A stretch of DNA of 49,110 bases from a bacterium (lineage in GTDB: Bacteria > SZUA-79 > Acidulodesulfobacterales > Acidulodesulfobacteraceae): contig DAHVNW010000006.1 of the NCBI GenBank assembly GCA_027319095.1, forward strand, positions 18,162 to 67,271. Reading direction: 5' to 3'. This document shows positions 13,451-18,223 of this stretch, in pieces. Every line of letters begins with the position of its first letter. Position 1 is the first letter of the stretch. The notes below the pieces were generated by a model. It was not told the DNA's origin and did not search any database. It saw only the letters and a program-made list of their open reading frames with translations. A program made the position numbers and the translations under genes.

Positions 13451-13646
13451 GATGCAAACATATAAACCGCGCAAATTCAAAACAGGTTAATTTTTTAATT
13501 AAAGTTAGTCCGCCCTGAATTGTAATTTTTAAAATATATGGTAATATTATTATATATCGTTTTTATAAATAATGCTTTAATATCCCAAAATCGCTGATAG
13601 AAAAGTTTAAAATAACTTTAAAGATACATAGATACTGCATAAGCGG

Positions 13647-13709
13647 CACTTAGGCCGGCATAAAGGCCACTTAAGCAGGCACAAAAGTCACTTCAGCAGG
13701 CACAAAAGT
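13647..13709. repeat. Three tandem 21-bp repeats
   Basis: Units begin at 13647, 13668 and 13689. Units 2 and 3 differ at one base; unit 1 is more diverged. The consensus is close to CACTTAAGCAGGCACAAAAG. They lie directly beside a second array with a different period, in a 557-bp stretch (13451-14007) with no convincing gene. Confidence 0.8.
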
Positions 13710-13718
13710 TTTACTTTT

Positions 13719-13790
13719 GTAAACGCCTGCTTCCGTATTTTTGTAAACGCCTGCTTCCGTATCTTTATAAACGCCAGCATGAGTATATTT
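13719..13790. repeat. Three tandem 24-bp repeats
   Basis: Units begin at 13719, 13743 and 13767. The first two differ at one base and the third is diverged. The core is AAACGCCTGCTTCCGTAT. Both arrays are multiples of three, so a minus-strand frame through them shows an octapeptide VYKNTEAG-type repeat, but this frame overlaps the start of the PqqD gene and lacks support as a gene. Confidence 0.8.
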
Positions 13791-13799
13791 ATATCCGCA

Positions 13800-13925
13800 T
13801 ACGCTGGAACAATAAGGCTTCTGCCGGTATTCCCCTTCTTTATATGGGAGAAGTAATGCTGGACAAGCATCCTTTTCCTTGTAAGGAAGGGTTAGGAGAG
13901 GGCGATGAGCGAAAAGATAATCTTC
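13800..13925 (-). repeat. Degenerate dispersed-repeat-like block
   Basis: Read on the minus strand, this stretch contains CCTAACCCTTCCTTACAAGG with an inner near-palindrome and then CTTCTCCCATATAAAGAAGG. Conceptual translation gives LLTLPYKEK and LLLPYKEGEYRQKP, peptides I associate with spurious frames in dispersed non-coding repeats. It looks like a decayed interspersed repeat; I cannot show other copies from this window. Confidence 0.4.
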
Positions 13926-14007: not shown

Positions 14008-14283
14008 ATGAGAACATTTAAACTTTCCAATTCGGTGGACATCAGAAGCGAGGAGGGAAAATATCTTCTTTTCGATAACGTTAGCGGAAGTATTTTTAAA
14101 CTTAACGAATTATCGTATGAAATTTTATCTTTATGCGACGGCTCGCACGCCGAAGAAAAAATTTTAGATAAAATTTCGGGTATGTTCGATGCTCCGGCAG
14201 AAAATATTTATAACGATTTTAATTCTTTAATTAATATTCTTTTAGAAAAAGGGTATATTTTGATTATGCAACATAATATATAA
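14008..14283 (+). CDS. PqqD-family peptide chaperone (RiPP recognition element)
   Basis: A 91-aa stand-alone PqqD-like winged-helix protein: SNSVDIRSEEGKYLLFDNVSG beta-hairpin, then FKLNELSYEILSLCDGSHAEEKI, the family signature, and DFNSLINILLEKGYI at the end. Such domains bind the leader peptides of ribosomally made, modified peptides and hand them to a maturase. A 34-codon gene with a precursor-like leader starts 40 nt downstream on the same strand. No radical-SAM, cyclase or protease gene is adjacent; the next gene is bacterioferritin. The partner enzyme, if any, must be elsewhere. Confidence 0.85.
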   Translation: MRTFKLSNSVDIRSEEGKYLLFDNVSGSIFKLNELSYEILSLCDGSHAEEKILDKISGMFDAPAENIYNDFNSLINILLEKGYILIMQHNI

Positions 14284-14323
14284 ACTTATATATAAACTTT
14301 ATTAAAAAAGGGGGTGAAAGTTT

Positions 14324-14428
14324 ATGAAAAAAACTTATGAAGCGCCGTTATTTCAGGAAATTCCTGCCGAAGAATTTTATAGCATCATAGTTGAAGGTTA
14401 TGGAATGAAGGATTCATGCTATTCCTGA
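14324..14428 (+). CDS. Putative RiPP precursor peptide, 34 aa
   Basis: A GGGGGTGA site lies 7 nt before ATG 14324. The peptide begins MKKTYEAPLFQEIP, with a Tyr-x-x-Pro leader motif like that recognised by PqqD-type domains in lasso and related RiPPs, and has an acidic middle (AEEFYS). It ends in a short candidate core, GYGMKDSCYS, with one Cys plus Tyr, Ser and Asp residues. It directly follows the PqqD-like gene, and a hairpin (14464-14519) closes the unit. Size, leader, ribosome site and context support a real gene; class and modification are unknown. The Thr at core position -2 typical of lasso leaders is absent. Confidence 0.65.
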   Translation: MKKTYEAPLFQEIPAEEFYSIIVEGYGMKDSCYS

Positions 14429-14463
14429 AAGGAATGTAAAAAATAGCGCAGGTTGCGCTTACG

Positions 14464-14607: not shown

Positions 14608-15072
14608 ATGCAAGGTAACGAAGAGATTATCAAAAGGCTAAACGCGAGGCTATCAGAGGAACTAACCGCTATAAACCAATATATGGTTCATTCCGAGATG
14701 TGCGATAATTGGGGATACGAATTGCTTCATAAAGAAATAGAAAAACGTGCAATAGACGAAATGAAACATGCAGAGAAAATTATAGGCAGGATTTTGTTTC
14801 TGGAAGGAATCCCCGTAGTGTCAAGTTACAATAAACTTTATATAGGCTCCACGGTAGAGGCGATGCATAAAAATGATAGGATAGCCGAAGAAGGCGCTAT
14901 CAGGTCATATAACGATGACATAAAATACGCTGCCGAGGTTCAAGACAACGGAACTAAGGATTTGCTCCAGTCTATACTCGACGAGGAGGAAGCTCATATC
15001 GACAAACTGGAAGAATATCTCGACCAGATTGAACAGATGGGAATCCAAATATATCTTTCGACATATAAGTAA
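14608..15072 (+). CDS. bfr: Bacterioferritin
   Basis: A 154-aa heme-containing ferritin subunit. The di-iron ferroxidase ligands Glu18, Glu51 and His54 are present at the same numbers as in E. coli Bfr, with Glu and His near 127-130 in DEEEAHIDKLEEYL. Met52 is the expected heme ligand between subunits (DEMKHAEKI). It stores iron as a 24-mer and protects DNA from Fenton chemistry. AAGGAGG lies just before the ATG. It is a single gene after the PqqD-peptide unit; with the Nramp, VIT1-like and Fur genes it forms the iron theme of the window. Confidence 0.95.
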   Translation: MQGNEEIIKRLNARLSEELTAINQYMVHSEMCDNWGYELLHKEIEKRAIDEMKHAEKIIGRILFLEGIPVVSSYNKLYIGSTVEAMHKNDRIAEEGAIRSYNDDIKYAAEVQDNGTKDLLQSILDEEEAHIDKLEEYLDQIEQMGIQIYLSTYK

Positions 15073-18149: not shown

Positions 18150-18223
18150 TAGATATAAAACCCCATGCATCAAAGGGATGGCTAGCCGTTTTATCGGGGC
18201 TTTCCGGCAAACGCCGAAAATAA
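18150..18223. other. Hairpin-rich leader ahead of the copper-chaperone-like gene
   Basis: CCCC near 18161 can pair with GGGG near 18198, enclosing the palindrome GGCTAGCC near 18181-18188; CGGCAAACGCCG follows near 18207-18218. The stretch is more GC-rich than its surroundings. It could be a terminator for hldD or a structured leader. No known riboswitch consensus was recognised. Confidence 0.35.

Follow-up and report, generated by a model that had tools for sequence, protein, structure and literature searches.

The PqqD-type gene and the small frame behind it in the window (the whole 49,110-nt stretch analyzed, positions 18,162 to 67,271 of contig DAHVNW010000006.1) are best explained as a discrete recognition protein and its selenocysteine (Sec)-containing RiPP precursor, in which an in-frame UGA is recoded and the Cys/Sec core would be modified in trans by a radical-SAM (rSAM)/SPASM enzyme encoded on another contig. 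We assign this reading a probability of about 0.85. Translation of the peptide, Sec recoding, conservation of leader and core, the link to the rSAM enzyme and the trans arrangement are each well supported by the sequences. The elements on which the argument rests are the following:

14008..14283, + strand: PqqD-type protein of 91 aa, a discrete RiPP recognition element (RRE); Pfam PF05402 match, tree placement and substitution pattern
14310..14316, + strand: ribosome binding site GGGGGTG, 7 nt ahead of the ATG; read in the sequence, with a GGAGGTG-type site kept before homologs
14324..14446, + strand: predicted Sec-containing precursor peptide of 40 codons, MKKTYEAPLFQEIPAEEFYSIIVEGYGMKDSCYS-U-KECKK, then TAG; family conservation and dN/dS against relative G003
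14324..14380, + strand: leader part MKKTYEAPLFQEIPAEEFY with YxxP and AEEFY motifs, its boundary to the core approximate; invariant Y5, P8 and A15-Y19
14426..14428, + strand: in-frame TGA, codon 35, very probably read as Sec; codon usage at this site in 34 copies
14429..14446, + strand: codons K E C K K after the UGA, then TAG; K-x-C-K kept with third-position changes and a varying terminal stop
14445..14459, + strand: SECIS-like hairpin AGCGCA-GGU-UGCGCU, loop 14451-14453, 22 nt past the UGA; occurrence in TGA copies, compensatory changes and model fit

The original prediction described a complete PqqD-type domain gene followed 40 nt later, behind a ribosome site, by a precursor frame, and both points stand. 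The 14008-14283 ORF matches the Pfam PqqD model with an E value of 3.5e-12 and 46.9 bits (cutoff, 23.4), the spacing is exactly 40 nt with GGGGGTG ahead of the start, and a PqqD-type RRE is encoded together with the precursor. It is the sole PqqD found by searching the source genome. Among 146 genomes searched, 21 others of the same family carry pqqD homologs, and the short YxxP frame that was proposed as a search target lies just downstream in most of these, with the pattern MKKxYxxPxxxEIxAEEFYxxxxExYGxKDSCYS. The window PqqD is the sister of G003 PqqD (support 99/97), from which it differs by a pS of 0.47 and a pN of 0.136. These comparisons indicate that the gene is genuine and strongly conserved across the whole taxonomic family of the bacterium. 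Directly behind the peptide, at window positions 14608-15072, is a gene for bacterioferritin (TIGR00754, 157.4 bits).

Up to its first TGA, the ATG frame (14324-14428) encodes MKKTYEAPLFQEIPAEEFYSIIVEGYGMKDSCYS. Twelve columns are invariant in 15 aligned ortholog sequences, namely M1, K2, Y5, P8, A15-E-E-F-Y19 and S31-C-Y33, two of which (Y5 and P8) form the Tyr-x-x-Pro leader motif that had been predicted. Compared with its nearest relative in G003, the window peptide shows 11 synonymous and 4 non-synonymous differences (pS 0.58, pN 0.05), for a dN/dS of about 0.04. Because of these conserved columns and mainly synonymous changes, we conclude from the sequences that the frame is translated; both outcomes that would have spoken against the original prediction, absence of the peptide from relatives and a non-coding substitution pattern, are contradicted by these values. 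Its 34-codon frame is thus right in its start and its reality and wrong in its end, since the TGA codon is followed by a coding pattern up to the TAG at 14444-14446. With the TGA very probably standing for Sec, the core becomes C-x-x-U-x-x-C in place of the short Cys/Tyr/Ser tail that the original prediction described. Among family models, none matched the window peptide and no NCBIfam cutoff was reached.

In 21 of 22 pqqD loci of relatives, a protein of about 338 aa is encoded immediately upstream of pqqD; scored on the copy from contig C88 of the source genome, its domains are Radical_SAM (87.5 bits) and SPASM (27.6 bits). This linkage bears on whether the peptide is instead a small selenoprotein that works unmodified in CxxU thiol/selenol redox chemistry while PqqD and the rSAM serve another purpose, a reading that we consider improbable. 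CxxU redox motifs are common in selenoproteins (PMC13188914), and such proteins resemble the window peptide in the motif, in Cys/Sec exchange between homologs and in a SECIS directly 3' of the UGA (PMC13188914). The peptide also occurs on its own, and the G019 case is a point against our main reading: G019 (97% complete) has an intact TGA form with SECIS (L096 8450), G012 (L097) and G002 (L098) have Cys forms, and in none of the three was a pqqD or a close rSAM detected. However, the leader, including YxxP, is as strongly conserved as the core, an rSAM-pqqD-peptide operon is present in most relatives, and a second lineage also pairs its peptide with rSAM genes. The CxxU redox selenoproteins have a folded thioredoxin-like domain, whereas the window peptide is 40 aa with a RiPP-type leader and a maturase.

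The second lineage, which also speaks for the main reading, was found by inspecting distant rSAM relatives. In G278 (L153 3324-3440) and G141 (L155 3124-3240), a peptide ending GKVCRK-TGA-AAG-AGC-TGA-TAG, that is, CxxU-K-S-(U or stop), lies between two tandem rSAM/SPASM genes, and two more genomes of the same order encode the same peptide (L168 and L169). A hairpin with a GUU loop about 30 nt past the first TGA overlaps the start of the second rSAM gene, SelA is present in both G278 and G141, and the peptide possibly contains two Sec residues. Its leader is unlike that of the window family, and no PqqD was seen beside the peptide or rSAM genes. Cys-only sister systems with the order rSAM-pqqD-peptide occur in G030 (L105 4345-4490; core CRQCSGCHGCR) and G021 (L106 near 6000, - strand; core CRQCSSCHACR).

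The case for Sec begins with the codon at the UGA site, which is TGA in 25 of 34 copies, TGC or TGT (Cys) in 9 and TAA or TAG in none, counts that overstate independence because the copies share kinship. Stops of long ORFs in the same loci are TAA in 221 cases, TGA in 61 and TAG in 38. Homologs from G002, G011, G012, G014, G017 and G020 have Cys at the exact UGA position (e.g., SCYSCKSCK). Past the site, K-x-C-K is kept while its third positions vary (AAA/AAG, TGC/TGT), and the true stop of homologs follows 4-5 codons later as TAA, TAG or TGA. Read through in this way, the window product would be 40 aa, ending ...KDSCYS-U-KECKK.

Just 3' of the UGA is the hairpin. The bacterial SECIS model (PMC13188914) calls for a loop of 3-9 nt, a stem of 4-16 bp, a G in the first two loop positions, a spacing of 16-37 and an MFE of -7.5 or lower. 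With its GGU loop, 6-bp stem and spacing of 22, the window hairpin agrees with the model on these three counts; the region, at an MFE of -9.6, is within the limit, which the isolated hairpin, at -7.0, narrowly misses. Of 25 TGA copies, 24 have the hairpin and only a decayed one on C88 lacks it, whereas 1 of 9 Cys copies has it (Fisher p 4e-6, indicative only, as the copies are related). For the four core pairs of its stem, all 72 cells hold a standard pair, and two of the four show compensatory changes. Of the TGA trinucleotides in the window, about 0.4% come with a comparable hairpin. The single-sequence folding energy of the region is unremarkable (z about -0.4, with L035, one of four references, left out for its wrong coordinates). 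We therefore set stability alone aside as evidence and base the case for a SECIS element on where the hairpin lies, on its being conserved and covarying, and on its absence from Cys forms. We rejected a Rho-independent terminator, as no U-run follows the hairpin.

The source genome encodes tRNA-Sec (68.2 bits), SelB (265.5 bits), SelA (563 bits) and SelD (351 bits), so that selA, selB, selC and selD are all present, each above its cutoff; for tRNA-Sec, only matches above the gathering score were counted and many sub-threshold tRNA matches were set aside. Judged by these genes, the organism can make selenoproteins. SelD (G000:C77:15200-16123) has an in-frame TGA of its own followed by a GAUAGGUCC-GGA-GGACCUAUC hairpin, which marks it as a selenoprotein and provides an internal control for the same TGA-hairpin design. 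Tying the Sec form of the peptide to the Sec machinery across genomes was uninformative; relatives with only Cys forms also carry SelA and SelB.

Because Sec and Cys exchange at one codon, TAA and TAG are absent there though TAA is the commonest stop, coding continues beyond the UGA, and a covarying hairpin is bound to the TGA state in a genome with tRNA-Sec, SelB, SelA and SelD, the TGA at 14426-14428 very probably encodes selenocysteine, giving a conserved Cys-x-x-Sec-x-x-Cys tail. It is very unlikely that the TGA is a true stop, which would leave an ordinary 34-aa RiPP precursor ending ...DSCYS, make the downstream similarity and the hairpin accidental or the latter a terminator, and reduce the point of interest to the trans maturase. 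Such is the default reading of the frame, and the energy of the hairpin is not exceptional, but an accident would have to account for nine homologs with Cys at the same codon and K-x-C-K after it, for synonymous changes beyond a codon that is never TAA or TAG, and for a hairpin that has disappeared from the decayed copy and from Cys forms and does not resemble a terminator.

The original prediction placed no maturase, cyclase, protease or transporter at the site and suggested either a maturase acting in trans or an unusual pathway. Among the genes neighboring the window pqqD and peptide, we likewise recognized no maturase, cyclase, protease or exporter. The intergenic region upstream of pqqD (window 13640-13800), where relatives have the rSAM gene, contains repeated units such as TTTGTAAACGCCTGCTTCCGTAT. 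The only close rSAM homolog in the source genome is on C88 (10345-11358); it is intact, 80% identical to that of G003 (pS 0.76, pN 0.11) and its sister in the tree (support 99/97), matching the PqqD tree. This places the C88 gene as the ortholog of the gene beside pqqD in relatives, so that a cognate rSAM/SPASM gene, linked in those relatives, is present on another contig here. Behind it are a decayed pqqD cut off after 33 codons (L094 11399-11501) and a peptide pseudogene with an ATA start, an internal TAA and no SECIS (L094 12057-12158). Because the rSAM gene is intact on another contig beside decayed copies of pqqD and the peptide, its product probably modifies the window peptide in trans; the source genome is a 168-contig draft with 1.5% contamination, which leaves a small chance that C88 is misplaced. 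Since the sisters of the C88 rSAM gene and of the window pqqD stand side by side in G003, the simplest history would be duplication of the operon and reciprocal loss, with C88 keeping the enzyme and the window keeping PqqD and the peptide. In G019, G020, G021, G023 and G024, the peptide is likewise separated from pqqD genes and occupies the place that the complete operon has in other relatives. By this phylogenetic evidence, the minimal pqqD-peptide pair arose secondarily, when a normal rSAM-pqqD-peptide operon was split, and is not an ancestral architecture. The original interpretation therefore holds for the RRE/precursor pair, the YxxP leader and the trans maturase, and falls short in missing the very probable recoding of the TGA, which takes the peptide past 34 aa.

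There is a slim chance that the operon was broken up in the source genome into decaying relics, neither copy being functional. The pseudogenes on C88 and the missing rSAM gene in the window are what such decay would leave, but the window peptide, its PqqD and the C88 rSAM are intact with mainly synonymous changes relative to G003, and the SECIS is intact. That the peptide is a lasso precursor with a PqqD (B1) protein, as its Tyr-x-x-Pro leader, discrete PqqD protein and weak lasso PqqD match might suggest, is hardly conceivable, and we rejected it: the partner gene in relatives encodes a radical-SAM/SPASM enzyme, the lasso PqqD model scores 22.6 bits against a cutoff of 70, no Asn-synthetase-like cyclase or B2 protease was recognized beside pqqD in relatives, and the core is too short and lacks the Gly1...Asp/Glu7-9 ring pattern of lasso cores.

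The Sec-containing RiPP precursor that we favor most resembles SbtA, from which SbtM makes a thio(seleno)oxazole RiPP (Lewis et al. 2021, as reviewed in PMC11002830 and PMC13188914). The two systems would share a short precursor, a Sec-TGA followed directly by a SECIS, and modification by an rSAM/SPASM enzyme. The only RiPP-type family in a 2026 catalogue of prokaryotic selenoproteins is the "selenobacteriocin" TIGR04081, which has SGUG motifs (PMC13188914). The window peptide gave no match to TIGR04081 (SbtA) up to E 10; its core is CxxUxxC whereas that of SbtA is SGUG, its PqqD is a separate protein, while in the SbtM model some 200 residues precede the rSAM part, and its genes, unlike those of SbtA/SbtM, are split in the source genome. 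The best NCBIfam match of the C88 rSAM is ACGX (TIGR04340; 142.7 bits, cutoff 400), followed by SbtM (TIGR04082; 133.8 bits, cutoff 350) and the GeoRSP rSAM (TIGR04303; 126.3 bits, cutoff 400). GeoRSP also has a separate PqqD (TIGR04302), against which the window PqqD scores 29.2 bits (cutoff 100). The Cys-only cousins of G030 and G021:C33, which end CxxCxxCxxCR, may be set beside ACGX and GeoRSP, whose NCBIfam names and descriptions, in contrast to the window family, include no Sec. PQQ and mycofactocin share with the window system a small precursor, a separate PqqD-type protein, an rSAM/SPASM enzyme and a conserved core suggesting a cofactor, but the rSAM scores 64.5 bits against PqqE (cutoff 381) and 108.9 against mycofactocin (cutoff 265), no PqqA or MftA model matches the peptide, and Sec in the core sets it apart. 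In searches of solved structures, PqqD had no match and the rSAM had general radical-SAM matches only. Membership in SbtA/SbtM, ACGX, GeoRSP, SynChlorMet, PQQ and mycofactocin was rejected, as all scores fall below curated cutoffs. Because there is no TIGR04081 match and the enzyme scores well short of the SbtM cutoff, we file the window peptide as a second precursor family of Sec RiPPs beside SbtA (PMC11002830, PMC13188914); NCBIfam of June 2026 has no model matching peptide or enzyme, and there is a small chance that Lewis 2021 or the Haft 2023/2025 papers already describe the family.

Under the proposed mechanism, the hairpin just past UGA codon 35 would direct SelB and tRNA-Sec to read that codon as Sec. 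PqqE is served by PqqD as an RRE in trans (PMC8326336), and by analogy with this class we infer that the window PqqD binds the MKKxYxxP...AEEFY leader and would present the C-terminal S-C-Y-S-U-K-x-C-K core to the C88 maturase. The enzyme would then modify the Cys/Sec core, for which a thio(seleno)oxazole or a thio/selenoether link appears likeliest because SbtM, its second-best match, makes a thio(seleno)oxazole. We favor as the product a Se/S-modified peptide that would be redox active or bind metal. The near-invariant core and the lack of a recognized exporter or immunity gene beside the pqqD-peptide pair would fit a peptide that acts like a cofactor or binds metal better than an antibiotic of variable sequence. 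Extra Cys-type peptide copies in G014 (L108) and G011 (L109) lie beside DsrE-family and small exported proteins, and an HMA-domain flavin reductase is near the C88 rSAM (L094). These neighbors hint at a metal or sulfur context in one genus; being near several copies in that genus, they are too narrowly conserved for a function to be assigned from them.

More tentatively, the product could be a PqqD/rSAM-made selenium peptide cofactor or metallophore in the core physiology of the whole family, a selenium counterpart of PQQ and mycofactocin that also exists in the distant CxxU-K-S lineage. Standard gene calling takes the Sec codon for a stop and so truncates or misses the precursor. With the split operon, the family offers a natural example of a RiPP maturase that probably acts in trans. 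Its natural exchange of Sec for Cys, together with a SECIS that is lost when Cys is used and a control in the source genome's own decayed copy, would allow the Sec-dependent chemistry of such peptides to be tested cleanly.
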